Part shown: in pieces, positions 7,812 to 51,930 of the stretch | How the letters are laid out: every line of letters begins with the position of its first letter | Position numbering within the stretch: position 1 is the first letter of the stretch | Assembly (NCBI RefSeq): GCF_038502225.1 | Contig: NC_091346.1 | Location: 12,339,865-12,403,864 of the forward strand | Length of the DNA stretch: 64,000 nt | Direction: 5' to 3' | DNA from: Cherax quadricarinatus | Lineage: Eukaryota > Arthropoda > Malacostraca > Decapoda > Parastacidae | Program-made: the position numbers and the translations under genes | Notes under the pieces: generated by a model | The model's database searches: none | What the model saw: the letters and a program-made list of their open reading frames with translations, nothing else | What the model was told of the DNA's origin: nothing

Positions 7812-7852
7812 TGAATAAAGATTCCCATATGCTGCATAAGTGTCTCAATCTT

Positions 7853-11020: not shown

Positions 11021-11055
11021 GGACTGATGAAGCCACTGTGTGGCGAAACGTTTCC
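11021..11055 (+). ncRNA. Hammerhead-ribozyme-like motif 4
   Basis: Same layout as motif 2, with CTGATGA at 11024-11030 and GAAACGTTTCC at 11045-11055. The core, stem I (GGA/TCC), stem II and the palindromic ACGT are all present. Confidence 0.6.
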
Positions 11056-11096
11056 TGAATAAATATTCCCATATGCTGCATAAGTGTCTCAATCTT

Positions 11097-11589
11097 CGAT
11101 ACTGGACAGTGTTGTGGGAGAGGGATACAGGACAGTGTTGTGGGAGAGTGATACTGGACAGTGTTGTGGGAGAGTGATACTGGACAGTGTTGCGGGAGAG
11201 TGATACTGGACAGTGTTTTGGGAAAGTGATACTCCACAGTGTTGTGGGAGAGTGATACTGGACAGTGTTGTGGGAGAGTGATTCTGGACAGTGTTGCGGG
11301 AGATGGATACAGGACATTGTCGTGGGAGAGTGATACTGGACAGTGTTGCGGGGGAGTGATACTGGACAGTGTTGCGGGGGAGTGATACAGGACAGTGTTG
11401 CGGGGGAGTGATACTGGACAGTGTTGCGGGAGAGTGATACTGGACAGTGTTGCGGGAGAGTGATACTGGACAGTGTTGCGGGGGAGTGATACTGGACAGT
11501 GTTGCGGGAGAGGGATACAGGACAGTGTTGCGGGGGAGTGATACTGGACAGTGTTGCGGGAGAGTGATACTGGACAGTGTTGCAGGAGA
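11097..11589. repeat. 26-bp satellite, homogenised block 3
   Basis: Regular 26-bp units. The first ten or so match the units after the first foldback copy, including rare variants, which confirms the 3.24-kb duplication. Confidence 0.93.
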
Positions 11590-18867: not shown

Positions 18868-19069
18868 TCCTGGTGGCTAAAGCTCTCGCTTCAGACGGCG
18901 AGGGTCCTTGTTCGATTCCCGGCGAGGTAGAAACACTGGGCGAGTTTCTTTACACCTGTTGTCTATGTTCCCCGTCAGTAAAATGGGTACCTGGGAGTTA
19001 GTCGACTGGGACAAAACTGACCTGATTTGCCCAAAATGCTCTGCATAACAAGTGGCTTTCTATATAGAC
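18868..19069 (+). mobile_element. tRNA-derived SINE (second family)
   Basis: A-box-like TGGCTAAAGCTCTCGC, B-box-like GTTCGATTCCCGGCGAGG, then ACACCTGTTGTCTATGTTCCC, AAAATGGGTACCTGG and GGCTTTCTATATAG. Same family as 37758, 42235 and 51620. Confidence 0.8.
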
Positions 19070-20545
19070 TCATGGAACTCTGTGTTCATCAAGAACTGCA
19101 AGAAGCCCCTAACATGTGCTTTTAACGTCCTGTGGAGAGGGAGTTTGGACACGGGTCGTCGCACAGTTACTAAAAAAACAGACACAGCCCCACTCCACAA
19201 ACGGGGCAGTAAAGCAAAGTATAGAACTACAGACCGATAGCGCTAACGTCCCATATCATAAAAATCTTTGAAAGGGTCCTGAGAACCAAGATCACCACCC
19301 ATCTAGATACCCATCAGTTACACAACCCAGGGCAGCATGGGTTTAGAGCAGGTCGCTCCTGTCTGTCTCAACTATTGGAGTACCATGACAAGCTCCTGGA
19401 TGCTCTAGAAGACAAACAGAATGCAGATGTAATACATGTAATAATGTAGTCAACAGAGTAAAGTCTGAGGCGGCTACAGTGAAAAACTCTGTTCCACAAG
19501 GAATAGTAGTAGACCCTATCTTGTTCCTCATCCTCAAATCGAGCATAGACAGGGATATAAGCCACAGCACCGTGTCTTCCTTTGCAGATGACACCCGAAT
19601 TTGCATGACAGTGTCCTCCACTGAAGACACTGCAAGACTCCAGGTGGACATCAACCAAATCTTTAAATGGGCTGCAGAAAACAATATGAAGTTCAATGAT
19701 GAGAAATTTCAATTACTCTGATATGGAAAACGTGAAGAAATTAAAACTATATCGGAGTATAAAACAAACTCCAACCACACAATAGAGCGAAAAATTAATG
19801 TCAAAGACCTGTGGGTGATCATGTCAGAGGATCTCACCTTCTAGGACCATAACATTGTATCAATCGCATCTGCTAGAAAACTTACAGGATGGACAATGAC
19901 AACCTTCTAAACCAGGGATGGCAAGCCCATGATGATATTCTTCAGGTCACTTGTTCTATTTAGGCTGGAATATTGTTGCATACTAACAGCACCTTTCAAG
20001 TCAGGTGAAATTGCTGACCTAGAAAATGTACGACACACACAACTGCGATATAACACCTCAGTTACTGGGAGCGCTTGAAGTTCCTCAAACTGTACTCCAT
20101 AGAATGCAGGCAGGAGAGATACATGATTATATGCACTTGGAAAATCCAAGAGGGACTAGTACCAAACTTGCACACGAAAATCACTCCTTATGAAAACAAG
20201 AGACTCGGCAGACGATGTAACATCCTCCCAATGAAAAGCAGGGGCACCACTAGCACGATAAGAGACAACACTATTCAACTGCCTCCCAGCATACATCAGG
20301 AGGATTACCATTAGACCCCTGGCTGTCTTCAAGCAGGCACTGGACAGGCACCTAAAGTCAGTACCTGACCAACCAGGCTGTAGTTTCTATGTTGGATTAT
20401 GTGCGGCCAACAGTGAGGCCTGGTCACAGACCGGGCCGCAGGGGCGTTGATCCGCGGAACTCTCTCCAGTTATACTCCAGGTATTAGTATGTCAGTGATG
20501 TCAGCTAAGCCTGTATACCTTGTACATGTACTTGTAGAAATAAAC
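19070..20545 (+). pseudogene. CR1/Jockey-superfamily LINE, RT to 3' tail, decayed
   Basis: Frames in order encode a FIKNCKKPLT segment, the GQHGFRAGRSCLSQL block, SVPQGIVVDPILF, SSFADDTRICM with the catalytic Asp pair near 19586, and a C-terminal RREYMIICTWKIQEG-type block, followed by TGATGTCAGCTAAGCCTGTA and TGTACATGTACTTGTAG. At least three frame breaks and a deletion after NADVIHV remove function. The tail sequence is shared with the SINE at 51620-51930, which suggests the SINE borrows this LINE's machinery. Confidence 0.8.
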
Positions 20546-23704: not shown

Positions 23705-23832
23705 TAACGCGTAGCTGATGTTAGGTGACTAGCCCAGGTAGTGTTAGGTGATCAGAGGGGACCTGATATAAGGTGACTAACCCAGACAGTTAGTGCTAGG
23801 TAATCAGAGGGGACCTGATGTAAGGTGACTAA
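23705..23832. repeat. 52-bp satellite, segment 1
   Basis: Units containing GGTGATCAGAGGGGACC and GACTAACCCAGG. Start of the large array that runs to 35.9 kb with interruptions. Confidence 0.9.
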
Positions 23833-24780
23833 CCCATTACATTACAGTAGAGCACTCCAGGAAGATTTGAATAGACTGATGCAGTGGTCGGAGAGGTGGC
23901 AGATGCAGTTTAATATAGACAAATGCAAAGTTCTAAATGTTGGACAGGACAATAACCATGCCACATATAAACTAAATAATGTAGATCTTAATATTACGGA
24001 TTGCGAAAAAGATTTAGGAGTTCTGGTTAGCAGTAATCTGAAACCAAGACAACAGTGCATAAGTGTTCGCAATAAAGCTAATAGAATCCTTGGCTTCATA
24101 TCAAGAAGCATAAATAATAGGAGTCCTCAGGTTGTTTTTCAACTCTATACATCCTTGGTTAGGCCTCATTTAGATTATGCTGCACAGTTTTGGTCACCGT
24201 ATTACAGAATGGATATAAATGCTCTGGAAAATGTACAAAGGAGGATGACAAAGGTGATCCCATGTATCAGAAACCTTCCCTATGAGGATAGACTAAGGGC
24301 CCTGAATCTGCACTCTCTAGAAAGACGTAGAATTAGGGGGGATATGATTGAGATGTACAAATGGAAGACAGGAATAAATAAAGGGGATGTAAATAGTGTG
24401 CTGAAAATATCTAGCCTAGACAGGACTCGCAGCAATGGTTATAAGTTGGAAAAATTCAGATTCAGGAAGGATATAGGAAAGAACTGGTTTGGTAATAGAG
24501 TTGTGGATGAGTGGAACAAACTCCCAAGTACAGTTATAGAGGCCAGAACGTTGTGTAGCTTTAAAAATAGGTTGGATAAATACATGAGTGGATGTGGGTG
24601 GGTGTGAGTTGGACCTGATAGCTTGTGCTACCAGGTCGGTTGCCGTGTTCCCCCCTTAAGTCAATGTGACCTGACCTGACTAGGTTGGGTGCATTGGCTT
24701 AAGCCGGTAGGAGACTTGGACCTGCCTCGCATGGGCCAGTAGGCCTGCTGCAGTGTTCCTTTGTTCTTATGTTCTTATGA
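23833..24780 (+). pseudogene. 5'-truncated CR1-like LINE, copy A (RT C-terminal region)
   Basis: A 250-codon frame starts at LQEDLNRLMQWSERWQMQFN, just after the catalytic Asp-Asp region, and runs to KYMSGCGWV at 24607. It covers the RT thumb and C-terminal domain with the LVRPHLDYAAQFWSPYYRM block. A 3' UTR follows, with a tail of GTTCTTAT repeats as in CR1-type elements. No palm catalytic residues, hence not functional. It sits inside the 52-bp satellite and is duplicated with its flanks at 28773-29720 (constant offset 4,940 bp). Confidence 0.9.
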
Positions 24781-25440
24781 TCTGATGTAAGGAGACTAAC
24801 CCAGGTAGTTATTGCTAGGTGATCAGAGGGGACCTGATGTAAGGAGACTAATCCAGGTAGTTATTGCTAGGTGATCATAGGGGACCTGATGTAAGGTGAC
24901 TCACCCAGGTAGTTATTGCTAGATGATCAGAAGGGACCTGATGTAAGATGACTAACCCAGGTGGTTATTGCTAGGTGATCATAGGGGACCTGATGTAAGG
25001 TGACTAACCCAGGTAGTTATTGCTAGATGATCAGAGGGGCCTGATGTAAGGTGACTAACCCAGGTACTTAGTGCTAGGTGATCAGAGGGGACCTGATGTA
25101 AAGTGACTAACCCAGGTAGTTATTGCTAGATGATCAGAGGGGACCTGATGTAAGGTGACTAACCCAGGTACTTAGTGCTAGGTGATCAGAGGGGACCTTA
25201 TGTAAAGTGACTAACCCAGGTAGTTATTGCTAGGTGATCATAGGGGACCTGATGTAAGGTGACTAACCCAGGTAGTTATTGATAGATGATCAGAGGGGAC
25301 CTGATGTAAGGTGACTAACCCAGGTACTTAGTGCTAGGTGATCAGAGGGGACCTGATGTAAAGTGACTAACCCAGGTAGTTATTGCTAGATGATCAGAGG
25401 GGACCTGATGTAAGGTGACTAACCCAGGTAGTTAGTGCTA
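24781..25440. repeat. 52-bp satellite, segment 2
   Basis: Thirteen units between LINE copies A and B. Variant order (GTACTTAGTG alternating with GTAGTTATTG) matches segment 4 after copy C, except for four extra units here. Confidence 0.93.
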
Positions 25441-27741
25441 GTTAGTAACTTGAGTACTAGGAGAACTAGTAATAGGCAAAATGAGGTGGATATTGGAAAG
25501 CCAGTGGCACTAATTGACAAGGACAGTAATAGGTTTAGTGGAATAACAGAAAGGAGCAGGAAGGGTAAAGAGAGAGGAGGGTCATTAAAAATTTATTACA
25601 CAAATAGTCGCAGTGCTAGGAATAAGATGGACGAGTTGAGACTAGTTGCTAGTGCAGGTAACATAGATGTATTTGCCATTACTGAGACGTGGTTTAATTC
25701 AAAAAGTCGGGACATGCCTGCAGAATGTCACATTCAGGGTTTTAAATTGTTCCAAGTAGATAGAAGTATCGGGAAGGGGGGTGGGGTGGCATTGTATGTC
25801 CGAGATCGCTTGAACTGTTGCATAAAAACGGGTATTAAGTCTGAAGTAACACATACAGAGTCTGTTTGGATAGAATTTTCAGAGGGGCATGAAAAATTAA
25901 TTTTAGGTGTGATATACCGTCCCCCAAATTTAGATAGGGACCAAGGGAGACTACTATGGGAGGAAATTGTTAGGGCCACAAGGCACGATAATGTAGTAAT
26001 TCTAGGAGACTTTAACTTTAGTCATATTGATTGGAATTTCTTGACTGGGAATTTAGAATCATACGATTTCTTAGAAGTAGTCCAGGATTGTTTTTTGAAG
26101 CAGTTTGTGACAGAACCTACAAGGGGAAATAACCTGCTTGACTTAGTTCTGGCAAACAATGAATCCCTTGTTAATAATTTAGAAGTTTCAGAGGAACTGG
26201 GTGCTAGCGACCACAAATCAATTACATTTAGAATTGAATGGAAGTATGATAGTAGGGATAACTCAGTAACAGTCCCAGATTTTCGCTTAGCAGATTACGA
26301 TGGGCTTAGAGAACACTTATCATCTGTTGACTGGGGTAACGAAGAGAGCTATCAATATGACAGTTTTCTGAACACAATACATGCTGCTCAAAGAACGTTT
26401 ATCCCTTATAAGGAAATTAGATCAAATAGAAATGACCCAAAATGGATGAATAATAGGCTGAAATATCTACTAGGGCATAAGAAAGGAATTTATAGGCGTA
26501 TCAAAAGAGGCGAGGGTCATCTTATGAATCAGGATATTGACATTAAGAGGGACATTAAAAAGGGGATAAGAAAAGCTAAAAGGGACTATGAAATTAAAGT
26601 TGCTAGGGATTCTAAAACTAACCCAAAAAGTTTTTTCCAGGTATATAGAACAAAAGTCAGAGATAAGATAGGTCCCCTTAAAAATAACTATGGGCATCTT
26701 ACTGACAAAGAGAATGAAATGTGCTCGATTTTAAATAAATATTTTCTCTCGGTTTTTACACAGGAAGACACTAATAATATTCCGGTAATTAATTTTTATA
26801 GTGGATCAGAAGAAGATATATTATGTAACATCACAGTCACTAGTGAAATGGTTGTGAAGCAGATAGACCGACTGAAGCAAAATAAGTCACCGGGTCCTGA
26901 TGAGGTTTTTTCAAGGGTTCTTAAGGAATGCAAAGTGGAAGTCTGTGAACCATTAACTAATATTTTTAATTTATCTCTTCAAACAGGTGTAGTGTCTGAT
27001 ATGTGGAAGATGGCTAATGTAATTCCTATTTTTAAAACAGGGGACAAGTCGTTACCGTCAAATTACCGCCCAATAAGCCTGACCTCAATTGTAGGCAAGT
27101 TGCTGGAGTCAATTATAGCTGAGGTTATAAGAAGCCATCTCGATAAGCATAGCTTGATTAATGATACTCAGCATGGATTCACAAGAGGCCGGTCTTGTCT
27201 AACTAATTTATTAACTTTCTTCAGTAAAGCTTTTGAGGCTGTTGACCACGATAAAGAATTTGATATTGTTTACTTAGATTTTAGTAAGGCATTTGATAGA
27301 GTTCCGCACCAAAGACTGTTGAAGAAAGTAGCAGCTCATGGCATTGGGGGAAGGGTGCTCTCGTGGATCGAGTCATGGCTCACAGACAGGAAGCAGAGAG
27401 TGTCCATAAATGGGGTTAAATCCGAGTGGGGATCAGTAACAAGTGGCGTTCCACAGGGATCAGTCTTGGGCCCGTTGTTGTTTATAATATATATCAATGA
27501 TCTTGATGAAGGAATTGCTAGTGATATGAGTAAATTCGCCGATGACACGAAGATAGGTAGGATAATTGATTCAAACGTAGATGTTAGGGAACTTCAGGAG
27601 GATTTAGACAAACTCTACTCTTGGTCAGAAAAGTGGCAGATGCGGTTCAATGTAGATAAATGCAAGGTTCTGAAGCTCGGGAGTGTCCATAACCCTAGCA
27701 CTTATAAGTTAAATAATGTAGAACTTAGCCATACAGATTGA
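25435..27741 (+). CDS. LINE ORF2: APE endonuclease plus reverse transcriptase, ended by TGA
   Basis: Encodes the target-primed reverse transcription enzyme of a CR1-like LINE. Numbering from 25435, the endonuclease spans about residues 50-270: TETW with E84, YRPP at 161-164, GDFN with D192 and N194, SDH at 258-260. The RT spans about 525-768: PSNYRPISL, YLDFSKAFD with D615, GVPQGSVLGPLLF, FADD at 701-704. All catalytic residues I can place are present. The first six bases are satellite. The first ATG in frame (25627) lies inside the endonuclease, so the start is lost by truncation. TGA at 27739-27741 sits where copies A and C have a Cys codon, so it is a point mutation. The C-terminal third follows in the same frame. 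Confidence 0.9.
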   Translation: MLVSNLSTRRTSNRQNEVDIGKPVALIDKDSNRFSGITERSRKGKERGGSLKIYYTNSRSARNKMDELRLVASAGNIDVFAITETWFNSKSRDMPAECHIQGFKLFQVDRSIGKGGGVALYVRDRLNCCIKTGIKSEVTHTESVWIEFSEGHEKLILGVIYRPPNLDRDQGRLLWEEIVRATRHDNVVILGDFNFSHIDWNFLTGNLESYDFLEVVQDCFLKQFVTEPTRGNNLLDLVLANNESLVNNLEVSEELGASDHKSITFRIEWKYDSRDNSVTVPDFRLADYDGLREHLSSVDWGNEESYQYDSFLNTIHAAQRTFIPYKEIRSNRNDPKWMNNRLKYLLGHKKGIYRRIKRGEGHLMNQDIDIKRDIKKGIRKAKRDYEIKVARDSKTNPKSFFQVYRTKVRDKIGPLKNNYGHLTDKENEMCSILNKYFLSVFTQEDTNNIPVINFYSGSEEDILCNITVTSEMVVKQIDRLKQNKSPGPDEVFSRVLKECKVEVCEPLTNIFNLSLQTGVVSDMWKMANVIPIFKTGDKSLPSNYRPISLTSIVGKLLESIIAEVIRSHLDKHSLINDTQHGFTRGRSCLTNLLTFFSKAFEAVDHDKEFDIVYLDFSKAFDRVPHQRLLKKVAAHGIGGRVLSWIESWLTDRKQRVSINGVKSEWGSVTSGVPQGSVLGPLLFIIYINDLDEGIASDMSKFADDTKIGRIIDSNVDVRELQEDLDKLYSWSEKWQMRFNVDKCKVLKLGSVHNPSTYKLNNVELSHTD

Positions 27742-28164
27742 GAAAAGGACTTGGGGGTTATGGTAAGCAGCAACCTTAAACCAAGACAGCAATGCCTAAG
27801 CGTACGTAATAAGGCAAATAGATTACTGGGATTTGTATCAAGAAGTGTAAGCAACAGAAGTCCAGAGGTCATACTGCAGCTTTATACATCATTAGTAAGG
27901 CCTCACCTAGATTATGCAGCTCAATTCTGGTCTCCATATTACAGAATGGACATAAATTCGTTAGAAAACATTCAGCGTAGGATGACTAAATTAATACATA
28001 GCATTAGAAATCTTCCTTATGAAGAAAGATTGAAGACTCTTAAGTTACATTCACTTGTTAGACGAAGAATGAAGGGAGACCTGATCGAAGTGTATAAGTG
28101 GAAGATAGGTATTAATAAAGGGGATATTAACAAGGTCTTGAGGATATCTCTCCAAGAGAGAACC
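27742..28164 (+). pseudogene. LINE ORF2 continuation after the TGA (RT C-terminal region)
   Basis: In-frame continuation beginning EKDLGVMVSSNLKPRQQ, with the RPHLDYAAQFWSPYYRM block. It ends where a 130-bp insertion enters at LQERT. Needs the TGA at 27739 to be read through to be joined to the enzyme. Confidence 0.85.
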
Positions 28165-28294
28165 CGCTCTCCAGGAGCTTTATCAAGCTTGATAAAGCTC
28201 CTGGAGAGCGAAACGTTGCCACAATAAATGTCACATTAGTTGCACTTGTGTCCTTTTACTTTACATATTGTCGGTAATTCTACCAACTTTATTA
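28165..28294 (+). mobile_element. 130-bp hammerhead-bearing insertion with 12-bp target duplication
   Basis: Flanked by CAAGAGAGAACC at 28153-28164 and 28295-28306. The insert opens with a perfect 46-bp palindrome (28165-28210, centre AAGCTT), then a hammerhead-like segment, then AATAAATGTCACATTAG, a T-rich part and TCGGTAATTCTACCAAC. No coding capacity. It interrupts the LINE frame, and the LINE protein continues on the far side. Size, duplication length and ribozyme suggest a non-autonomous Penelope-related retroelement. Confidence 0.75.
28187..28220 (+). ncRNA. Hammerhead-ribozyme-like motif 6 (U3-A8 core variant)
   Basis: Layout GC, TTGATAA (28189-28195), one A, GCTC-CTGGA-GAGC (28197-28209), then GAAACGTTGCC. 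Against CTGATGA, C3 becomes T and G8 becomes A together. These two bases pair in the hammerhead core, so the change is compensatory. Stem I is short (GC/GC). Cleavage would follow GTT. Confidence 0.5.
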
Positions 28295-28486
28295 CAAGAG
28301 AGAACCTGCAGTAATGGATTTAAATTAGATAAGTTTAGATTTAGAAAGGACATAGGAAAGTATTGGTTTGGAAATAGGGTAGTTGATGAGTGGAACAGTC
28401 TACCTAGTTGGGTTATTGAGGCTGGGACTTTGGGTAGTTTCAAATTTAGGTTGGATAAGTACATGAGTGGGAGGGGTTGGATTTGA
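28295..28486 (+). pseudogene. LINE ORF2 C-terminal end, beyond the insertion
   Basis: Continues the LINE B protein from QERTCSNGFKLDKFRF to SGRGWI and a TGA at 28484-28486, after the second copy of the target duplication. A 3' UTR and a TTCTTATG tail follow to 28640. Confidence 0.85.
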
Positions 28487-28640
28487 GAGGGACTTGCACA
28501 TCGGAGCTTGTTTCTTGGGTGGCATTGAAAATTGGGTTGGTCAAATGTTTGTTAGTGGGATGAATTGTAAAGGACCTGCCTAGTATGGGCCAACAGGCCT
28601 TCTGCAGTGTTCCTCCTTTCTTATGTTCTTATGTTCTTAT

Positions 28641-28772
28641 CAGAGGGGACCTGATATAAGGTGACTAACCCAGGTAGTTATTGCTAGGTGATCAGAGGGG
28701 ATCTGATGTAAGGTGACTAACCCAGGTAGTTATTGATAGGTGATCAGAGGGGACCTGATGTAAGGTGACTAA
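28641..28772. repeat. 52-bp satellite, segment 3
   Basis: Two and a half units between LINE B and LINE C. They include the rare GGGGATCTGATG variant also found at about 30.24 kb. Confidence 0.9.
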
Positions 28773-29720
28773 CCCATTACATTACAGTAGAGCACTCCAG
28801 GACGATTTGAATAGACTGATGCAGTGGTCGGAGAAGTGGCAGATGTAGTTTAATATAGACAAATGCAAAGTTCTAAATGTTGGACAGGACAATAACCATG
28901 CCACATATAAACTAAATAATGTAGATCTTAATATTACGGATTGCGAAAAAGATTTAGGAGTTCTGGTTAGCAGTAATCTGAAACCAAGACAACAGTGCAT
29001 AAGTGTTCGCAATAAAGCTAATAGAATCCTTGGCTTCATATCAAGAAGCATAAATAATAGGAGTCCTCAGGTTGTTTTTCAACTCTATACATCCTTGGTT
29101 AGGCCTCATTTAGATTATGCTGCACAGTTTTGGTCACCGTATTACAGAATGGATATAAATGCTCTGGAAAATGTACAAAGGAGGATGACAAAGTTGATCC
29201 CATGTATCAGAAACCTTCCCTATGAGGATAGACTAAGGGCCCTGAATCTGCACTCTCTAGAAAGACGTAGAATTAGGGGGGATATGATTGAGATGTACAA
29301 ATGGAAGACAGGAATAAATAAAGGGGATGTAAATAGTGTGCTGAAAATATCTAGCGTAGACAGGACTCGCAGCAATGGTTATAAGTTGGAAAAATTCAGA
29401 TTCAGGAAGGATATAGGAAAGAACTGGTTTGGTAATAGAGTTGTGGATGAATGGAACAAACTCCCAAGTACAGTTATAGAGGCCAGAACGTTGTGTAGCT
29501 TTAAAAATAGGTTGGATAAATACATGAGTGGATGTGGGTGGGTGTGAGTTGGACCTGATAGCTTGTGCTACCAGGTCGGTTGCCGTGTTCCTCCCTTAAG
29601 TCAATGTGACCTGACCTGACTAGGTTGGGTGCATTGGCTTAAGCCGGTAGGAGACTTGGACCTGCCTCGCATGGGCCAGTAGGCCTGCTGCAGTGTTCCT
29701 TCGTTCTTATGTTCTTATGA
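28773..29720 (+). pseudogene. 5'-truncated CR1-like LINE, copy C
   Basis: Same start, end and sequence as copy A at a 4,940-bp offset, with few substitutions. One of them turns a CAG codon into TAG at about 28847 (QM-stop-FNIDK), so the intact frame begins only at 29095. It lies in matching satellite on both sides, so A and C are one insertion later duplicated, not two insertions. Confidence 0.9.
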
Positions 29721-30642
29721 TCTGATGTAAGGAGACTAACCCAGGTAGTTATTGCTAGGTGATCAGAGGGGACCTGATGTAAGGAGACTAATCCAGGTAG
29801 TTATTGCTAGGTGATCATAGGGGACCTGATGTAAGGTGACTCACCCAGGTAGTTATTGCTAGATGATCAGAAGGGACCTGATGTAAGATGACTAACCCAG
29901 GAAGTTATTGCTAGGTGATCATAGGGGACCTGATGTAAGGTGACTAACCCAGGTAGTTATTGCTAGATGATCAGAGGGGACCTGATGTAAGGTGACTAAC
30001 CCAGGTACTTAGTGCTAGGTGATCAGAGGGGACCTGATGTAAAGTGACTAACCCAGGTAGTTATTGCTAGATGATCAGAGGGGACCTGATGTAAGGTGAC
30101 TAACCCAGGTACTTAGTGCTAGGTGATCAGAGGGGACCTGATGTAAAGTGACTAACCCAGGTAGTTAGTGCTAGGTGATCAGAGGGGACCTGATATAAGG
30201 TGACTAACCCAGGTAGTTATTGCTAGGTGATCAGAGGGGATCTGATGTAAGGTGACTAACCCAGGTAGTTATTGCTAGGTGATCAGAGGGGACCTGATGT
30301 AAGGTGAATAATCAATCCAGGTAGTTATTGCTAGATGATCAGAGGGGACCTGATGTAAGGTGACTAACCCAGGTAGTTATTGTTAGATGATCAGAGGGGA
30401 CCTGATGTAAGGTGACTAACGCAGGTAATTATTGCTAGATGATCAGATGGGACCTGATGTAAGGTGACTAACCCAGGTAGTTATTGCTAGGTGATCAGAG
30501 GGGACCTGATGTAAGGTGACTAACCCAGGTAGTTATTGCTAGATGATCAGAGGGGACCTGATGTAAGGTGACTAAACCAGATAGATTGTGCTAAGTGATC
30601 AGAGGAGATTTCATATGAGGTGACTAACCCAGGTAGTTAGTG
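29721..30642. repeat. 52-bp satellite, segment 4
   Basis: About 18 units. Units 1-8 repeat the variant order seen after copy A. The unit boundary at 30173/30174 corresponds to the LINE B insertion site. Confidence 0.92.
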
Positions 30643-30647
30643 TTAGG

Positions 30648-31788
30648 CGTTACAAAAAACGCGATTTCTAATAAGCATAGAGATCTCTAGTGATTACTAG
30701 AAAGGACTGCCCTTCTAGCATCCAGCCTGTTACTGGGTTTTTGTAACAAGTAGTCAGTATCCTGGTCCAATTATCCATTAGAATTTAGTAAGATTCCATA
30801 GTGTTTCAGGATTACAACTGGTAGGCTACTAACTAAAGAAATTAAAATTTAATAAGTTTATTTATAACAAAATTGTCTAGGCGTATATTATTAAAGCAAA
30901 TTAAACTAATCAATTGAATATAATACAGGATACAAGTTGCTACACTACTCTGGTGTACAGTAGTATTGTGTTGAAGGCACATATCACATCTTTATGGCTT
31001 TTAAGTACCGTCTGGTACATTGTCAGCATTTAATAACATAATACAAATATATACAAGTAAGTTTGTGTGTATGTGTGTAAGTGCTCTAAGTAGTTCGCTA
31101 TGTCTCAAGACTCGACTAGACTTAACCAGTGACTGACTAAAAGTCCTCACATAAACTAACTTCTTGACCAACCTGGCAATCAGAACAGCTTGCTTGAACA
31201 ATAAGGCGACTGTTAAGCCGAACAGCAATATAACAAGCAACAGCAACACAGAATCAGGAACAAGGAGATAATATAACGACACTAAGTAGGGACCATCTGC
31301 AGATCCTCCACAAAAATCACAAAACTCCCATACTACTGAATCTAAGTTGAGCATAAGAAAATCCCCGACTGTGACAAAACACAGATACCTATAAATTAGA
31401 TCAGAAGCTACAGCTCAGGACCTGAGTTTCTCAGAGTGTCTGTGCTACACACAACCTCAGTACAACGTCGAAAATCACTAAGTCTAGGGCCAAACAGAAA
31501 AGAGGGCGAGTCAAAGCAAGACAGTCTCACCCAGGAGAGGTGTTATCACCCCCCTCCTTCCCCAATCACGTGACTCCGTGGACTGCTGCTGCCCAGCAAC
31601 ACAGAGAAGCCTGCAGGGAAACAAGCAGAACTGGTAGTTAGATCCTACCTAATAATATAACTAAGTCAAATAATAATATAAAGCAATATATTTACGATTT
31701 AGCTAATATCGCAAATATAAGCAATATAAAATTATACGAAGAGGTAATATACATTATATACATTGTGACCCATTCAGGGGTCGCAATA
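30648..31788 (-). mobile_element. Solo LTR, minus orientation
   Basis: A 1,141-bp block in the satellite, inverted relative to 33765-34973. Flanked by TTAGG (30643-30647) and CTAGG (31789-31793), a 5-bp target duplication with one mismatch. Ends correspond to TG...CA with one change at each end (CG and TA on the plus strand). A minus frame of 117 codons (31001-31354) starting MLNLDSVVWEFCDFCGG recurs in the other copy, but I see no known domain. Confidence 0.8.
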
Positions 31789-31793
31789 CTAGG

Positions 31794-33764
31794 TGATCAG
31801 AGGGGACCTGATGTAAGGTGACTAACCCAGGTAGTTATTGCTAGGTGATCAGAGGGACCTGATGTAAGGTCACTAACCGAGGTAGTTAGTGCTACATGAT
31901 CAGAGGAAACCTGATGTAAGGTGACTAACGCAGGTAGTTAGTGCTATGTGATCAGAGGGAACCTGATGTAAGGTGACTAACCGAGGTAGTTAGTGCTAGG
32001 TGATCAGAGGGACCTGATGTAAGGTCACTAACCGAGGTAGTTAGTGCTACATGATCAGTGGGACCTGATGTAAGGTGACTAACCCAGGTAGTTAGTGCTA
32101 TGTGATCAGAGGGAACCTGATGTTAGGTGACTAACCCAGGTAGTTATTGCTAGGTGATCAGAGGGACCTGATGTAAGGTCACTAACCGAGGTAGTTAGTG
32201 CTACATGATCAGTGGGACCTGATGTAAGGTGACTAACCCAGGTAGTTAGTGCTATGTGATCAGAGGGAACCTGATGTAAGGTGACTAACCGAGGTAGTTA
32301 GTGCTAGGTGATCAGACGGGACTTGATGAAAGGTGACTAACGCAGGTAGTTAGTGCTAGGTGATCAGAGGGGACCTGATGTAAGGTGACTAACGCAGGTA
32401 GTTCGTGCTAGGTGATCAGAGGGGACCTGATGTAAGGTGACTAACCCAGGTAGTTATTGCTAGGTGATCAGAAGGGACCTGATGTAAGGTAACCAACGCA
32501 GGTAGTGGGTGCCAGGTGATCAGAGGGGACCTAATGTATGGTGACTAACCCAGGTAGTTAGTGCTAGGTGATCAGAGGAGACCTGATGAAAGGTAACTAA
32601 AGCAGGTAGTTAGTGCTAGGTGATCAGAGGGGACCTGATGTAAGGTGACTAACCCAGGTAGTTAGTGCTAGGTGATCAGAGGGGACCTGATGTAAGGTAA
32701 CTAACCCAGGTAGTTAGTGTAAGGTGATCAGAGGGGACCTGATGTAAGGTGACTAACCCAGGTAGTTAGTGTAAGGTGATCAGAGGGAACCTGATGTAAG
32801 GTGACTAACGCAGGTAGTTAGTGATAGATGATCAGAGGGGACCTAATGTATGGTGACTAACCCAGGTACTTAGTGCTAGGTAATCAGAGGGGAACTGACG
32901 TAAGGTGATTAACGCTGGTAGTTAGTGCTAGGTGATCAGACGGGACCTGATGTAAGGTGACTAACCCAGGAAGTTAGTGCTAGGTGATCAGAGGGGACCT
33001 GATGTAAGGCGACTAACGCAGGTAGTTAGTGCTAAGTGATCAGAGGGGACCTGATGTATGGTGAGTAACGCAGGTAGTTAGAGCTAGGTGATCAGAGGGG
33101 ACCTGATATAAGGTGACTAACCCAGGTACTTAGTGATAGGTAATCAGAGGGGAACTGACGTAACGTGATTAACGCTGGTAGTTAGTGCTAGGTGATCAGA
33201 CGGGACCTGATGTAAGGTGACTAACCCAGGAAGTTAGTGCTAGGTGATCAGAGGGGACCTGATGTAAGGCGACTAACGCAGGTAGTTAGTGCTAAGTGAT
33301 CAGAGGGGACCTGATGTATGGTGACTAACGCAGGTAGTTAGAGCTAGGTGATCAGAGGGGACCTGATATAAGGTGACTAACCCAGGTAGTTAGTGCTAAG
33401 TGATCAAAGGGGACCTGATGTAAGGAGACTAACGCTGGTAGTTAGTGCTAAGTGATCAGAGGGGACCTGATGTATGGTGACTAACGCAGGTAGTTAGAGC
33501 TAGGTGATCAGAGGGGACCTGATATAAGGTGACTAACTCAGGTAGTTATTGCTAGGTGATCAGAGGGGACCTGATGTAAGGTGACTAACCCAGGTACTTA
33601 ATGCTAGGTGATCAGAGGGGACCTGATGCAAGGTGACTAGCCCTGGTAGTTAGTGCTAGGTGATCAGAGGGGACTTGATGTAAGGTGACTAGCCCATGTA
33701 GTTAGTGCTAGGTGATCAGATTGGACCTGATGTAAGGTGACTAGCCCTGGTAGTTGGTGCTAGG
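31794..33764. repeat. 52-bp satellite, segment 5
   Basis: About 38 units with more divergence than segments 2-4. A subset carries TAACGCAGG and GAGGGACCTG variants in local runs, and a block of about 270 bp near 32.87-33.11 kb recurs at 33.12-33.36 kb. Confidence 0.92.
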
Positions 33765-34973
33765 TGTTGCAACCCCTGAATGGGTTGCAATGATTTTTAT
33801 GTATATATATAATTATTACCTTTTCATATAATTTTATATTGCTTATATTTGCGATAATAGCTAAATCGTGAATGTATTGCTTTATATTGTTATTTGACTT
33901 ATGTTGTTAGGATGTAACATATTATGTGCTCAGTTCAAGTCTTGATTGTCAAACTACTGTAATTATCGCTTGTGGCTCGTTAGACTGCCGGCTTCTGAGC
34001 TGCAGTTGTCCACGGAGCTATCACGTGATCGAGGGGGGGTGTCCTCACCTCGCCTAAAGTATTCAGTCTGCTCTAGACTCTCTTGGAGGTTGGACAGATT
34101 GTCTGTCTCATTATTCTTGTTAGTTCTGTAGAACTCTGTTCACAGAACATTGTATAGACTTCGTGATTTTCGACGTTGTACTGAGGTTGTGTGTCACATA
34201 GACACTCTGAGTATCTCAGGTCCTGAGCTGTAACTTCTCACTTTACTTGTACTGGTATCTGTGTATTATCGCAGTTGGGGATTTTCTTATGCTGAACTTA
34301 GATTCAGTATTATGGGAGTTTTGTGACTTTTGTGGAGGATCTGCAGATGGTCCCTACTTAGTGTCGTTATATTATCTCCTTGTTCCTGATTCTGTGTCGC
34401 AGTTGCTAGTTGTATGGCTATTGGGCTTAGCATTCTTTTTTGTTCAAGCAGACTGTTCTGGTTGCCAGTCGGTTAAGAAGTTAGTTTATGAGAGGACTTT
34501 GTCAGTCACTTGTTTAAGTCTAGTCGAGTCGTGAGACATAGCGAACTACTTAGAGCACTTACACACATACATACACACTTGTACATATTTGTAATATCTT
34601 ATTAAATGTTAATGTACCAGATGGTACTTAAGAATTATAAATGTGTTATGTGCTTTCAGCACAATAATATTGTACTCGAGAGATGTGATATTATTTTGAT
34701 TACTGTGATTAATTTAATTTAATTTAATTTGATAATATACCTCTAGACAACTTAATGATTAATAAATTTATTAAATTTTAATTTCTCTAGTTAGTAGCCT
34801 ACCAGTTGAAATCCTGAAGCACTATTGAATAATACTGAATTCTAATGGATAATTGGACAAGGATACTGACTACTTGTTACGAAAACCCAGTAACAGGCTG
34901 GATGCTAGAAGGGCAGTCCTTTCTAGTGTTCACTGGAGATCTCTAAGCTTTTAGAATCGCGTTTTTTGTAACA
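33765..34973 (+). mobile_element. Solo LTR, plus orientation
   Basis: A 1,209-bp block starting TGTTGCAACCCC and ending TTTTTTGTAACA, with a perfect 5-bp target duplication CTAGG at 33760-33764 and 34974-34978. TG...CA ends, 5-bp duplication, no coding domains and a second full-length copy in the same satellite all fit a solo LTR. The parent superfamily cannot be told. A 95-codon frame (34247-34534) is similar to the one in the other copy. Confidence 0.85.
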
Positions 34974-34978
34974 CTAGG

Positions 34979-35925
34979 TGATCAGAGGGGACCTTATGTA
35001 AGGTGACTAACCCTGATAGTTATTGCTAGGTGATCAGAGGGGACCTGATGTAAGGTGACTAACCCAGGTACTTAGTGCTAGGTGATCAGAGGGGACCTGA
35101 TGCAAGGTGACTAGCCCAGGAAGTTAGCGCTAGGTGATCAGAGGGGACCTGATGTAAGGTGACTAACCCAGGTATTTAGTGCTAGATGATCAGAGGGGAC
35201 CTGATGCAAGGTGACTAACGCTGGTAGTTAGTGCTAGGTGATCAGACGGGACCTGATGTATTGTGACTAACCCAGGTAGTTAGTGCTAGGTGATCAGAGG
35301 GGACCTGATGTACGGTGACTAACGCAGGTAGTTAGTGCTAAGTGATCAGAGGGGACCTGATGTAAGGTGACTAAGGCAGGTAGTTAGTGTTAGGTGATCA
35401 GAGGGGACCTGATATAAGGTGACTAACTCAGGTAGTTATTGCTAGGTGATCAGAGGGAACCTGATGTAAGGTGACTAACCCAGGTAGTTAGTGCTAGGCG
35501 ATCAGAGGGGACATGATGTAAGGTGACTAACCCAGGTAGTTAGTGCTAGGTGATCAGATTGGACCTGATGTAAGGTGACTAGCCCTGGTAGTTAGTGCTA
35601 GGTGATCAGAGGGAACCTGATGTAAGGTGACTAACCCTGATAGTTATTGCTAGGTGATCAGAGGGAACCTGATGTAAGATGACTAACCCAGGTAGTTAGT
35701 GCTAGGCGATCAGAGGGGACCTGATGTAAGGTGACTAACCCAGGTAGCTAGTGCCAGGTGATCAGAGGGCACCTGATGTAAGGTGGCTAACCCTGGTAGT
35801 TATTGCTAGGTGATCAGAGGGGACCTGATGTAAGGGAACTAACGCAGGTAGTTAGTGCTAAGTGATCAGGGTGGGACCTAATGTAAGGTGACTAACCAAG
35901 GTAGTTAGTACTAGGTGAATAAAAG
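34979..35925. repeat. 52-bp satellite, segment 6
   Basis: About 18 units, increasingly divergent to the right, where the unit starts to read CTAGGTGAATAAAAG like the SINE body. Confidence 0.9.
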
Positions 35926-36045
35926 AATCAGTTGTAAGGTACTAACACCCAAGTATTGACTCATTGGTAGATGAGCAGTGGCATCAGGTGACTAACACCG
36001 AGGTACCTACTTATTGCTAGGTGAATAAGGGTATCAGTTTTAGGT
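35926..36045 (-). repeat. SINE-body-like tandem units at the array edge
   Basis: Two degenerate units with GACTAACACC, AGGTACCTACTTATTG and CTAGGTGAATAAGGG. On the minus strand they read TTCACCTAGCAATAAGTAGG and GTACCTCGGTGTTAGTCACC, which is the body of the tRNA-SINE family. Confidence 0.7.
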
Positions 36046-36049
36046 GGAG

Positions 36050-37290
36050 GTGTACTGGGAGGTTCCCTGCACTGGAAGGTTCACTGCACTGTTAGGTTCC
36101 CTGCACTGGGAGGTTCCCTGCACTGGAAGGTTCCCTGCACTGGGAGTTCCCTGCACTGGGAGTTCCCTGCACTGGGAGGTTCACTGCACTGTAAGGTTCC
36201 CTGCTCTTGAAGGTTCCCTGCACTGGGAGTTCCCTGCACTGGAAGGTTCCCTGCACTGGGAGGTTCCCTGCACTGTAAGGTTCCCTGCACTGGAAGGTTT
36301 TCTGCACTGGGAGGTTCCCTGCACTGGTAGGTTCCCTGCACTGGGAGGTTCCCTGTACTGGGAGGTTCCCTGCACTGGGAGGTTCCCTGCTCTGGAAGGT
36401 TCCCTGCTCTGGAAGGTTCCCTGCACTGGAAGGTTCCCTGCACTGGGAGGTTCTCTGCTCTGGAAGGTTCCTTGCACTGGAAGGTTCCCTGCACTGGGAG
36501 GTACCCTGCTCTGGAAGTTTCCCTGCTCTGGAAGGTTCCCTGCTCTGGAAGGTTCCCTGCACTGGGAGTTCCCTGCACTGGAAGGTTCCTTGCACTGGGA
36601 GGTTCCCTGCACTGGAAGGTTCCCTGCTCTGGAAGGTGGGACTGCTCTGGGAGGTTCCCTGTACTGGGAGTTCCCTGCACTGGAAGGTTCCCTGCACTGG
36701 GAGTTCCCTGCACTGGAAGGTTCCTTTCAGTGGAAGGTTCCCTGCACTGGGAGGCTGCCTGCACTGGAAGTTCTCTGCACTGGAAGATTCCTTGCACTGG
36801 AAGGTTCCCTGCACTGGACGCTTCCTTGCACTGGAAGGCTCCTTGCACTGGAAGGTTCCCTGCACTGGAAGGTTCCCTGCACTGGAAGGTTCCCTGCTCT
36901 GGAAGGTTTCCTGCACTGGGAGTTTCCTGCACTGGAAGTTTCCTTGCACTGAAAGGTTCCTTGCAATTTAAGGTTCCCTGCACTGGAAGGCTCCCTGCCC
37001 TGGAAGGTTCTCTGCCCTGGAAGGTTCCCTGCAGTGGGAGGTTCCTTGCACTGGAAGGTTCCCTGCACTTGAAGGTTCCCTGCACTGGAAGGTTCTCTGC
37101 ACTGGAAGGTTCCCTGCACTGGTAGGTTCCCTGAACTGGAAGTTTCCTTGCACTGGAAGGTTCCTTGCACTTGAAGGTTCCCTGCACTGGAGGGTTCCCT
37201 GCACTGGTAGGTTCCCTGCACTGGAAGGTTCCCTGCACAGGGACGTTCCCTGCTCTTCAGGGTTCCCTGCACTGGAAGGTTCCCTGCTAT
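36050..37290. repeat. 17-bp satellite (GGTTCCCTGCACTGGAA type)
   Basis: About 73 units of 17 bp with CACTGG/CTCTGG and GGGAGG/GGAAGG variants and occasional one-base-shorter units. All frames on both strands tend to stay open (302-codon plus frame, 385-codon minus frame). These are artefacts of the repeat. Confidence 0.93.
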
Positions 37291-37478
37291 AATTCCCGCC
37301 TCTCCTGTACCTCTCAAGATACCTTTATTGTAAATGTACCTTCCTGTTCAACGTGAATTCTGGAACTCTCTTAATTCTGTCAGTTTTGCGGAGTAATGAA
37401 TGGTTGCATCGGTATAAACGGTAAAACAATGGCCTTATGGTGGAGGACAGTAAGTGCAGCCAGAGTGCGCAAGTGCAC
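37291..37478. other. Short unique-looking spacer
   Basis: Non-repetitive DNA between the 17-bp array and the CAC-rich tract. No gene seen. Confidence 0.35.
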
Positions 37479-37688
37479 TTCCTCTCCCACCATCACTATC
37501 ACTACCATTAGTGCCACCATCAGCTCAGCCACCATTATCAGTACCTGCATTACTATCACCACCATTACCACAACCAGCAAATCAACCTCCGCCCCCACCA
37601 CCAGCATACCACCACCAACAGCAGCACCACCACCAGCAGCACCACCACCACCACCACCACTACCACCACCAGCAACACCACCACCCTA
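37479..37688. repeat. ACC/CAC-rich repeat
   Basis: Irregular CACCAC and CAGCAC words giving Thr, His or Pro-rich frames. Confidence 0.85.
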
Positions 37689-37689
37689 G

Positions 37690-37757
37690 GTTCTCTACAC
37701 AAATGCTGCTATGTATGATATGTAACTGTATTTGTGTATACCTGAATAAACTTACTA
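37690..37757 (+). mobile_element. LINE 3' tail fragment
   Basis: GGTTCTCTACACAAATGCTG, ATGTATGAT and CCTGAATAAACTTAC match the tail of the LINE at 46418-46985. No coding part is present. Confidence 0.55.
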
Positions 37758-38545
37758 GGCCCCGTGGTCTGGCTGGCTCTCGCTTCACACGCAGAGGTCC
37801 GGGTTCTGTTCCCGGCAGGGGTGGAAACATTGGACGCCTTTTCTTACTGCTGTTGTTCTGTTCACCTAGCAAGTAGGTACCTGGGTGTGGGTCACATCCT
37901 GTTCAGCTAGCAAGTAGGTACCTGGGTGTGGGTCACATCCTGTTCAGCTAGCAAGTAGGTACCTGGGTGTGGGTCACATCCTGTTCACCTAGCAAGTAGG
38001 TACCTGGGTGTGGGTCACATCCTGTTCACCTAGCAAGTAGGTACCTGGGTGTGGGTCACATCCTGTTCACCTAGCAAGTAGGTACCTGGGTGTGGGTCAC
38101 ATCCTGTTCACCTAGCAAGTAGGTACCTGGGTGTGGGTCACATCCTGTTCACCTAGCAAGTAGGTACCTGGGTGTGGGTCACATCCTGTTCACCTAGCAA
38201 GTAGGTACCTGGGTGTGGGTCACATCCTGTTCACCTAGCAAGTAGGTACCTGGGTGTGGGTCACATCCTGTTCACCTAGCAAGTAGGTACCTGGGTGTGG
38301 GTCACATCCTGTTCACCTAGCAAGTAGGTACCTGGGTGTGGGTCACATCCTGTTCACCTAGCAAGTAGGTACCTGGGTGTGGGTCACATCCTGTTCACCT
38401 AGCAAGTAGGTACCTGGGTGTGGGTCACATCCTGGGGGACAAGACAGATGGAAACAAGACAGACAATCCCTCGATAACTCACTGGCTTTCTTGAGTTATT
38501 CTGGGTGGCTAACCCTCCAGGGTTAAAAATCCAACAAAAATTTTC
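37758..38545 (+). mobile_element. tRNA-derived SINE, expanded internally
   Basis: Head with GGCTGGCTCTCGCTTCACAC and B-box GGTTCTGTTCCCGGC, body with GTTCACCTAGCAAGTAGG, and after the internal expansion a 3' part GGGGGACAAGACAGATGG, TTGAGTTATTCTGGGTGGC and AACCCTCCAGGGTTAAAAAT. The SINE is complete at both ends, but its middle has become the 41-bp array. Confidence 0.8.
37861..38434. repeat. 41-bp tandem array, 14 copies, inside a SINE
   Basis: Exact 41-bp periodicity: TTCACCTAGCAAGTAGGTAC followed by CTGGGTGTGGGTCACATCCTG. Units are almost identical, the only variant being GTTCAGCTAGC in units 2 and 3. So the expansion is recent or still homogenised. Confidence 0.97.
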
Positions 38546-38549
38546 TTAT

Positions 38550-38995
38550 CTTACAACCAGCACACCACCACCACCAGTACCTACATTACCAGCACCATCA
38601 GCACACCACCGGCACACCACCAGCACCACCAGTACCTACATTATCAGTATCACCGGCACACCGCCAGTACCTACATTACCAGCACCACCAGTACCTACAT
38701 TACCAGCACCACCAGTACCTACATTACCAGCACCACCAGTACCTACATTACCAGCACCACCAGCACATCACCACCACCAGTACCTACATTACCAGCACCA
38801 ACGGCACACCAGCACACTACCAACACCACAACAATACCGCCCCACCACACAAGCACACCAGCACCGCCACACCACCTACACCACACCAGAGCCACACCAG
38901 TACCGCCACACCAGCACACTACCAACACCACAACAACACCGCCACACCACAACACCACACGAGCACCGGCACACCACCAACACCACACCAGTGCC
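38550..38995. repeat. CAC-rich repeat with a 24-bp unit
   Basis: Units of ACCAGCACCACCAGTACCTA plus CATT repeat at 24 bp between about 38.65 and 38.77 kb, then become irregular CACACCAGC words. Confidence 0.85.
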
Positions 38996-39586
38996 AGCAT
39001 AGCCACAAGCACACCCCCCACGAGCACCGCCACAAGCACACCACCACGAGCACCGCCACAAGCACACCACCACGAGCACCGCCACAAGCACACCGCCACA
39101 AGCACACCACCACGAGCACCGCCACAAGCACACCACCACGAGCACCGCCACAAGCACACCACCACGAGCACCGCCACAAGCACACCGCCACAAGCACACC
39201 ACCACGAGCACCGCCACAAGCACACCACCACGAGCACCGCCACAAGCACACCACCACGAGCACCGCCACAAGCACACCACCACGAGCACCGCCACAAGCA
39301 CACCACCACGAGCACCGCCACAAGCACACCACCACGAGCACCGCCACAAGCACACCACCACGAGCACCGCCACAAGCACACCACCACGAGCACCGCCACA
39401 AGCACACCACCACGAGCACCGCCACAAGCACACCACCACGAGCACCGCCACAAGCACACCACCACAAGCACACCACCACGAGCACCGCCACAAGCACACC
39501 ACCACGAGCACCGCCACAAGCACACCACCACGAGCACCGCCACAAGCACACCACCACGAGCACCGCCACAAGCACACCACCACCAG
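38996..39586. repeat. 26-bp CAC-rich satellite (CACAAGCACACCACCACGAG plus CACCGC)
   Basis: About 22 units of 26 bp, with a few shortened ones (CCGCCACAAGCACACCGCC). Unrelated in sequence to the 26-bp array at 2-15 kb. Minus frames of 242-285 codons with a VLVVVCLWRCSWWCACGG cycle are artefacts. Confidence 0.93.
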
Positions 39587-40036
39587 GTGTAAGGTGACAA
39601 ACATCCAGGTGTCTTCCTATTGCTAGGTAAATAGTGGCAGCAGGTGTATAGTGACTAACATTAAGGTTCCTACTTACTGCTAGGTGAATAGCGACAGTAG
39701 GTGTAAGGTGACTAACACTCATGTACCTACATACTGGTAAGTGAACAGGTGCATCAGGTCTGACTAACTACAGGTGCCTGCTTATTGCTAGGTGAATTGG
39801 GGTAGCAGGTGTAAGGTGACTAACACACAGATACCCACTTACTGATAGGCGAACTGAGACATCAGGTGCCGCTAACAACCAGGTACCTACTTATTGCTTG
39901 TGATGTATATAAAATGAGTGCCACCTAGGAACCTACTTACTGCAAAGTGAAAAGCTGCAGCAGGTTTAAGAAACATACCTAACTTGTCACCCGTGCCGAG
40001 AATTAAACCCCAGTCCCGCTGTGTTGTACACAGTAA
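39587..40036 (-). mobile_element. tRNA-SINE, minus, with body amplified into 54-57-bp repeats
   Basis: Right end reads on the minus strand as a SINE head: GGTTTAATTCTCGGCACGGG and TGACAAGTTAGG. To its left, about six degenerate units repeat CTAGGTGAATAG, GGTGTAAGGTGACTAACA and AGGTACCTACTTA at 54-57-bp spacing. These are the reverse of the SINE body. Confidence 0.7.
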
Positions 40037-42234: not shown

Positions 42235-42640
42235 CACTTGTACAAGGTATACAAGTACATGTACAAGGTATACAAGTACATGTACAAGGTATACAAGTAC
42301 ATGTACAAGGTATACAAGTACATGTACAAGGTATACAAGTACATGTACAAGGTATACAAGTACATGTACAAGGTATACAGACCATAGCTGACATCAGTCA
42401 CATACAACTATATAGAAAGCTGCTTGTTATGCTGAGCATTTCCCGCAAATTAGGTCAGTGTCCCAGGATGCGACCCACACCAGTCCACTAACACCCAGGT
42501 ATCTATTTTACTGATGGGTGAACATGGACAGCAGGTGTCTTAAGGAAACACGTCCTAATGTTATCACCCGTGCCGGGGATGGAACCACGGCCACTCACTG
42601 TGTGAAGCGAGAGCGTTCCCTACCTGGCCACAATTTATAG
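42235..42640 (-). mobile_element. tRNA-SINE, minus, with 21-bp tail repeats
   Basis: Read on the minus strand: GGTAGGGAACGCTCTCGCTT (A-box region), GGTTCCATCCCCGGCACGGG (B-box), GGTGTTAGTGGACTGGTGTG, GCTTTCTATATAG, TGATGTCAGCTATGGTCTG, then about seven copies of a 21-bp repeat made of the tail words GTATACCTTGTACATGTACTT. Complete copy, non-coding. Confidence 0.8.
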
Positions 42641-49905: not shown

Positions 49906-50009
49906 TGTATATGATCATGTAAGGCAGGACGACAGTCTTTTTTACCACCAGACCAGAATACATTAATCACTAAAAACGTTGATTAAACTCAACTATCAGA
50001 AATATTGGG

Positions 50010-50130
50010 CGTGTTTTTTTTTTACACCTGTTGTCTATGTTCCCCATCAGTAAAATGGGTACCTGGGTGTTAGTGGACTGGTGTGGGTCGCATCCTGGGA
50101 CACTGACCTAATTTGCCCCAGCATATATAC
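50010..50130 (+). mobile_element. tRNA-SINE body fragment
   Basis: Lacks the head. ACACCTGTTGTCTATGTTCC, AAAATGGGTACCTGGGTG and GGTCGCATCCTGGGACACTG match the SINE body. Ends at ATTTGCCCCA. Confidence 0.75.
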
Positions 50131-51619: not shown

Positions 51620-51930
51620 TGCTCGTGGCCTGGTGGCTAAAGCTCTCGCGTCACATGGCAAGGGTCTGGGTTCGATTCCCAGCCAGAGTAGAAACACTTG
51701 GTGTGTGTTTTTTTTTTTACACCTGTTGTCTATGTTCCCCATCAGTAAAATGGGTACCTGGGTGTTAGTGGACTGGTGTGGGTCGCATCCTGGGACACTG
51801 ACTTGATTTACCCGAAATGCTATGCATAACAAGGGGCTTTCTATACAGTAGTACTTCACTGATGTCAGCTATGGTCTGTATACTTTGTACATGTATTTGT
51901 AGTAAATAAAAATATTAAAGAACCTGATCT
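51620..51930 (+). mobile_element. Full-length tRNA-derived SINE
   Basis: Head with TGGCTAAAGCTCTCGC and GGGTTCGATTCCCAGCC (A and B boxes), T-rich linker, body with AAAATGGGTACCTGGGTG, AAGGGGCTTTCTATACAG, and tail TGATGTCAGCTATGGTCTG, TGTACATGTATTTGTAG, AATAAAAATATT. The tail is nearly the same as that of the LINE at 19070-20545. Confidence 0.85.

Follow-up and report, generated by a model that had tools for sequence, protein, structure and literature searches.

The beginnings of satellite DNA are usually guessed because the first steps have been erased. A 64,000-nucleotide window of the Cherax quadricarinatus genome (contig NC_091346.1 of a 3.95-Gb assembly with 7,334 contigs) raises the question of whether such steps may still be readable at one locus. 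A first-pass annotation of this DNA had proposed that several satellites in the window were born from the body of one transfer RNA (tRNA)-derived short interspersed nuclear element (SINE). The window is the whole stretch analyzed, and its coordinates are window positions (Table 1). Our analysis indicates, with a probability of roughly 0.88, that a tRNA-derived SINE of Cherax-like crayfish repeatedly spawns minisatellites from its body. Within a single genome, segments of one SINE body occur in 1, 2, about 4, about 9, 14, and dozens of copies, and one unit changes into another at an array edge.

Five SINE copies or parts (S1, S2, S3, S5, and S6) were found in the window by blastn with the window SINEs, and S4 is additional to these. 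The window SINEs have a tRNA-like head in common and most carry a body with TACCTGGGTGTTAG and GGTGTGGGTCGCATCCTGGG; their tails differ. Relatives of S6 are common in the genome, as judged from the best 40 of 1,978 first-look candidates, which were scored. The fetched loci (denoted by L-numbers) include near-identical dispersed copies (L066 and L068–L072) that form one young subfamily and match a single-copy consensus, built from eight copies with L067 left out, at 97.1–99.6%. L061 and L063 belong to the same subfamily (83.5% and 94.9% to the consensus). Many dispersed, near-identical copies thus share the order of head, body, and tail, as is characteristic of a tRNA-derived SINE. GGTTCGATTCC, which resembles box B of RNA polymerase III promoters, is visible in L066–L072. 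ARAGORN found no tRNA gene in the window and an Rfam scan of the window gave no match. Two SINEs adjoin, the head of the second coming immediately after the first, at the end of L061 and at about 2150–2560 in L054, which may point to end-to-end insertion.

Genome searches with the 41-bp array, the edge of the 52-bp satellite, and the array at 39.6 kb (best 40 candidates scored of 337, 960, and 1,703, respectively) matched tandem arrays on many contigs. At the fetched loci, Tandem Repeats Finder reported units of 31, 32, 37, 39 (two kinds), 43, 44, 46, 50, 52 (a second kind), 53, 54–55, and 57 bp, and reading of L074 and L077 added units of 27 and 40 bp. The 50- and 53–55-bp units look like 57-bp units with small deletions, such that these lengths would not all be separate births. 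Furthermore, the array loci are not all independent events because L026, L028, L035, and L040, with flanks alike at 96–99.8%, are segmental copies.

To gauge similarity to the SINE, three single-copy SINEs were used as references for 20 candidate units and for the units of nine unrelated minisatellites, each score being compared with those of 200 dinucleotide-preserving shuffles. Seventeen candidates, of twelve lengths (31, 32, 39, 41, 43, 44, 46, 50, 52, 53, 55, and 57 bp), beat all shuffles, and all nine unrelated units were reached by shuffles (7 to 170 of 200). A SINE origin of the L058 37-bp unit (reached by 2 of 200 shuffles) is doubtful, and none is claimed for the L059 39-bp array (13 of 200); the third candidate that shuffles reached is the 52-bp unit of the window. 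A SINE origin for every unit in the window is ruled out, given that the 26-bp, 17-bp, 59-bp, 21-bp, and 14-bp arrays do not beat their shuffles. The motifs that had been quoted for the 52-bp, 41-bp, and 54–57-bp units are all present, and the proposal of a common SINE body stands for the 17 units above; the 52-bp unit is linked to it only via the 57-bp family. In the 41-bp and 57-bp families, the unit is a part of the SINE and shorter than it, at least four units are arranged in tandem, and terminal units run into the SINE terminus, though not at every array; the 41-bp type occurs at one locus only.

Two side observations concern the structure of such loci. The SINE tail, too, forms tandem repeats close to arrays of the second 52-bp kind in L044 (3309–3626) and L054 (2600–2934); the tail unit measures about 117 bp and has (TTA)n at its end. 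In L057 (about 1740–2244), a SINE-body array with units of about 27 bp directly adjoins a different one with units of about 44 bp, as if one had been born from the other.

The copy numbers of the body form a graded series. In L074, a 27-bp stretch of a SINE is duplicated (two copies), and L073 and L075 hold two copies each with common flanks, so that they represent one event. L054 is a SINE with four 32-bp copies, L076 has about four body copies (one partial), and L077 has about nine copies of 40 bp. S2 carries 14, and other loci carry dozens. The search for SINEs with two to five body copies, which the first-pass annotation had suggested for intermediates, was therefore successful (L073–L076 and L054). 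Its SINE with 14 copies is also borne out, in that the 41-bp array (14.1 copies, 99% identity) is positioned between the head and the tail of S2. The 32-bp units span the 3' part of the body and the 41-bp units another part. The exact pattern of the 41-bp junction has 11 matches genome-wide, all of them in S2, and the exact 52-bp pattern has 20 matches in the genome, all of them in the window; as far as exact matches tell, both junctions are private to this locus. A SINE edge with about six decayed copies had likewise been described, and the 54–57-bp units, about seven by our count, do adjoin the S4 head. This head was missed by a general flank scan at an expect (E) value of 1e-3 and was caught by direct scoring against SINE heads: its score against the S3 head is 61, compared with a maximum of 32 in 300 shuffles. 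It is weaker against S2 (37; reached by 1 of 300), S6 (36; 0 of 300), and S1 (31; 4 of 300).

Parts of the SINE are retained outside many arrays. Among 34 arrays scanned at E 1e-3, nine are bracketed by SINE parts, the head at the 5' side and the tail at the 3' side in SINE orientation (window S2, L029, L031b, L033, L045, L051, L053, L055, and L056b), one has a head only, and seven have a tail only; 93 control segments from the same loci yielded one head and three tails. In four of the nine, the query that matched the head came from the locus itself; independent queries also match these four heads, with best E values of 5e-9 or lower. Parts on the unexpected side were observed in three of the 34 arrays, namely a tail in the 5' flank of L052 and heads in the 3' flanks of L054 and L031b. 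In L054 a second SINE lies directly next to the array, and the other two are taken as neighboring SINEs. In a test for unrepeated SINE remainders, which covered 30 of the 34 arrays (L026, L035, L040, and L059 left out; L043 and L049 without a 5' flank), 17 of 30 arrays carried the 3' remainder of the SINE at their 3' edge and 8 of 28 carried the 5' remainder at their 5' edge, each beating 200 shuffles, with both at seven arrays. When the flanks were swapped as a control, the counts were 0 of 28 and 0 of 30.

These remainders bear on the direction of the process. If an old 57-bp satellite had come first and a SINE had captured one unit as its body, arrays ending in unrepeated SINE sequence would be hard to explain, as would the SINEs with two and four copies and the many unit frames and lengths, since the capture of one unit should have left a single frame. 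The 57-bp unit is indeed found on many contigs, and the groups cannot be rooted by a 39-row tree in which 24 of the 34 inner branches are unresolved. Taken together, such a reverse order of events is very improbable.

Three duplication junctions, chosen for their readability on real sequence or on the single-copy consensus, point to short direct repeats as the breakpoints. The 32-bp unit has CCTGGG at both boundaries (6-bp microhomology), the 41-bp unit has TCCTG (5 bp; the stretch measures 44 bp in the single-copy consensus), and the 27-bp duplication of L074 has TGTT (4 bp). For random breakpoints 25–60 bp apart in the body, the probabilities of at least 6, at least 5, and at least 4 bp are 0.003, 0.008, and about 0.02, respectively.

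The 52-bp satellite, which had been presented as a 7-kb array of derived units, amounts to 4.8 kb in six blocks spread over 12.2 kb (23.7–35.95 kb), because copies of a long interspersed nuclear element (LINE) and two inverted inserts resembling solo long terminal repeats (LTRs) interrupt it. We read it as a putative second-generation derivative, kin to the SINE only indirectly via the 57-bp family, because of its match to the 57-bp unit, a shared junction, transitional units at its edge, and the tree. When compared with the genomic 57-bp body unit (L043), the 52-bp unit scores 63 on the SINE strand (100 shuffles: mean 19.6, maximum 32, none reaching; z 9.4) and 14 on the other strand, which is below the shuffle mean and reached by 73 of 100 shuffles. 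Two further comparisons of it on the SINE strand, with the 41-bp unit (score 38) and with the second kind of 52-bp unit in L044 (43), also beat 100 shuffles, and six unrelated control units gave no match to it on either strand. Within the window, the satellite matches the units at 39.6 kb (blastn, E <= 1e-3). The junction GTTAGTCACCTTACA is common to the 52-bp and 57-bp units; single-copy SINEs have GTTAGT and then GGACTGG or CGACTGG. From 36.05 kb inwards, the edge consists of a 57-bp unit of SINE type, a shortened unit of the 57-bp type, and a hybrid, followed by regular 52-bp units. Scores against the 57-bp and 52-bp consensus sequences change accordingly from 69/38 through 37/18 and 44/59 to 32/74 in the first regular unit. 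In the tree, which takes in one of up to four units from 39.6 kb, the two outer edge units group with the SINEs and the 57-bp units, and the hybrid branches off basally to the 52-bp units (support 99/97), but most inner branches of this tree are open.

Several results weigh against an origin in the SINE body. The 52-bp unit scores only 21 against the three single-copy SINEs (shuffle mean 18.4; reached by 35 of 200), and neither the flank scan nor the remainder test found a SINE end beside the 52-bp array. The first-pass annotation had regarded scores no better than shuffled controls as a refutation; such scores were obtained for the 52-bp unit with the single-copy SINEs but not with the 57-bp family (0 of 100). 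The low score with the single-copy SINEs and the lack of a SINE end beside the array, together with the private 52-bp pattern, are what would be expected if this satellite had a separate origin and adjoined the decayed SINE-body units by chance. Given the match to the 57-bp unit in SINE orientation and not on the other strand, the common junction, the hybrid edge unit, and the blastn match to the units at 39.6 kb, such a coincidence is scarcely credible. In addition, comparison of the 52-bp unit with the 32-bp unit gave a score of 32 on the wrong strand, above the maximum of 30 in 100 shuffles, which warns of some noise in such scores. Half of the arrays (17 of 34) have neither a SINE head nor a tail at E 1e-3. 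The remainder test is partly circular for the 41-bp and two 32-bp arrays because the 3' remainder overlaps the repeat unit, and without these the 3' remainder is present in 14 of 27 arrays and both ends in four. The sample of arrays is biased, as the queries were themselves tandem, and no frequency of tandem SINEs can be derived from it.

The remaining points of this kind concern the junctions. Little microhomology was found at the 44-bp unit (about 2 bp) and the second 52-bp unit (1 bp), and the common 57-bp unit has 0 bp, with about two extra bases at the junction; these three readings are approximate, since the mapping references (r1 and r2) were assembled by hand from the first and last units of SINEs. 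Direct repeats of 4 bp in the body numbered 7, 14, and 15 in three sequences, compared with 5.0, 12.6, and 11.0 in shuffles, of which 123, 199, and 97 of 500 reached the observed counts. A SINE body that is special in short direct repeats is therefore ruled out, there being no significant excess in the three sequences. Duplication at short repeats is well supported for some units, not all.

An origin of the arrays within the SINE body may be described as a series of steps. A body stretch of 27–57 bp would first be duplicated in tandem after insertion; the resulting pairs are observed, and in the three readable junctions the duplication would have ended at 4–6-bp direct repeats carried by the SINE itself. 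Slippage or unequal exchange would then extend the pair to 4, 9, 14, and dozens of copies, a series that is present in the genome, with the SINE head and tail remaining outside the growing array. Subsequently, indels and substitutions within an array would create a new unit, as the shift from 57 to 52 bp at one locus illustrates, which would then be homogenized. Finally, some arrays may travel by segmental duplication or perhaps as multi-copy SINE RNA. The arrays look like mutational by-products and no function need be assumed.

The last step may be given greater weight: LINE-mediated insertion of multi-copy SINE RNAs, and not local expansion, would then be the main route by which arrays spread. 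L044 and L054 have in common both the tail and the second 52-bp unit, and L029 has the tail and related units. These three loci are on one contig; they have different 5' flanks, and in two of them the element breaks off inside the body, which would fit reinsertion of a multi-copy RNA. However, the 41-bp and 52-bp junctions are found at one locus only, several 57-bp arrays are segmental copies with common flanks, and inspection by eye found no clear target-site duplication at L044 (nor at S2 in the window). Spread mainly through RNA is thus unlikely. Beyond local expansion from the SINE body, it is conceivable, though rather doubtful, that this body acts as a satellite nursery, in which, in this crayfish lineage, independent duplications at many loci, with their own frames, supply a large share of the minisatellite families of the genome. 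If true, this would help to explain the abundance of minisatellites in crayfish.

Table 1. Window positions of SINE copies and satellite arrays. For the 52-bp blocks, the strand is that of the SINE sense.
Feature	Position	Strand	Evidence
S1, single-copy tRNA-SINE	18869..19070	+	blastn to S3, E 3e-29; alignment
52-bp satellite block 1	23715..23836	-	tandem-repeat detection and blastn
52-bp satellite block 2	24779..25441	-	
52-bp satellite block 3	28639..28776	-	
52-bp satellite block 4	29719..30647	-	
52-bp satellite block 5	31789..33766	-	
52-bp satellite block 6	34974..35946	-	
Three transitional units at 52-bp array edge	35890..36046	-	57/52 consensus scores; tree
S2 tRNA-like head	37766..37857	+	matched by S3 head query (as L003, same place), E 5e-9
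41-bp array, 14.1 copies, within SINE S2	37858..38434	+	
S2 3' part and tail	38433..38555	+	tail query matches tails in L045, L051, L053, L054, E 5e-17 to 2e-27
About seven decayed 54-57-bp SINE-body units	39584..39985	-	consensus beats 200/200 shuffles against SINEs
S4, decayed SINE head feeding 54-57-bp units	39956..40036	-	score 61 vs S3 head
S3, single-copy tRNA-SINE	42401..42635	-	blastn; alignment
S5, 5'-truncated SINE	49998..50116	+	90% to S3 over 111 bp
S6, single-copy tRNA-SINE	51621..51856	+	blastn; alignment

LINE copies and the two solo-LTR-like inserts lie between the 52-bp blocks. One interrupting LINE copy has endonuclease and reverse-transcriptase domains. For the LINE at 25.4–27.7 kb, the top match of the reverse-transcriptase frame, among the best 120 of 540 matches, is a Cherax quadricarinatus protein (94% identity over 63% of the query). 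A 1.7-kb block composed of 52-bp satellite and a 3' LINE fragment is present twice (23715–25441 and 28651–30386; 97.5% identity), representing a local duplication with a longer LINE copy in between. The solo-LTR-like inserts (30648–31788 and 33765–34973) are inverted, measure 1.1–1.2 kb, and are 86% alike over 843 bp and 83% over 138 bp; they lie within the 52-bp satellite, and their ends are flanked by TTAGG/CTAGG and CTAGG/CTAGG. Elsewhere in the window, positions 2007–15073 hold a long, partly decayed satellite with units of 26–29 bp, whose SINE-body score was reached by 7 of 200 shuffles. Viral contigs gave no match for a 21-base SINE pattern or a 25-base satellite pattern, and GTDB genome contigs gave no pattern match. 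An 18-base pattern in two near-identical viral contigs (L001 and L002), within a 532-amino acid reading frame in L001, was taken as chance.

Comparisons with known systems draw on portions of the sources cited. SINE-derived satellites (sSats) occur in squamate reptiles, and their restriction to squamates was called uncertain by the authors, who also point to previous accounts of short internal duplications, of about 30 nt, in SINEs (PMC10702118). As in squamate sSats, the tandem units in the crayfish are part of a tRNA-SINE, the terminal unit runs to the SINE end, several unit variants exist, and longer arrays are more uniform (PMC10702118). The units differ in size, being about 70–290 nt in squamates and 27–57 bp in the crayfish, and arrays with both SINE ends are minor or uncommon in squamates, compared with 9 of 34 in our biased sample (PMC10702118). 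The present case bears on the question, left open in PMC10702118, of SINE-derived satellites outside squamates.

Among other crayfish, the repeatome of Pontastacus leptodactylus contains 240 minisatellite clusters that account for 24.7% of the genome (PMC7859515). C. quadricarinatus resembles it as a crayfish genome loaded with tandem repeats of 10–100 bp; in the portion consulted, the origin of the P. leptodactylus minisatellites is left as speculation, with no SINE source given (PMC7859515). Repeat-rich decapods have been described without a SINE source for their satellites in the parts consulted (PMC7859515 and PMC10454600), and those of PMC12628747, PMC12692304, and PMC3504011 contain no crustacean SINE-derived satellite. 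The titles and abstract beginnings of the best-ranked part of longer literature lists, in which subscription papers are thinly covered, yielded no crustacean report, which is no proof of absence. Such minisatellite-rich crayfish could serve for measuring the birth rates of satellites.

Alu and B1 SINEs are derived from 7SL. Minisatellites are known from Alu and from mouse B1 (Jurka and Gentles 2006; Bois 1998, as cited in PMC6947457 and PMC9659126), and the model of Haber and Louis invokes duplication between short direct repeats of 5–10 bp (PMC6947457). As in these minisatellites (PMC6947457 and PMC9659126), a short SINE segment between short direct repeats would have been duplicated and expanded in the clearest crayfish cases. 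Unlike those mammalian SINEs of another type, the crayfish element is a crustacean tRNA-type SINE, and many unit frames arise from one body in one genome. The crayfish case belongs to a known kind, that of the Alu/B1 minisatellites and the squamate SINE satellites, with an unusually complete series of steps.

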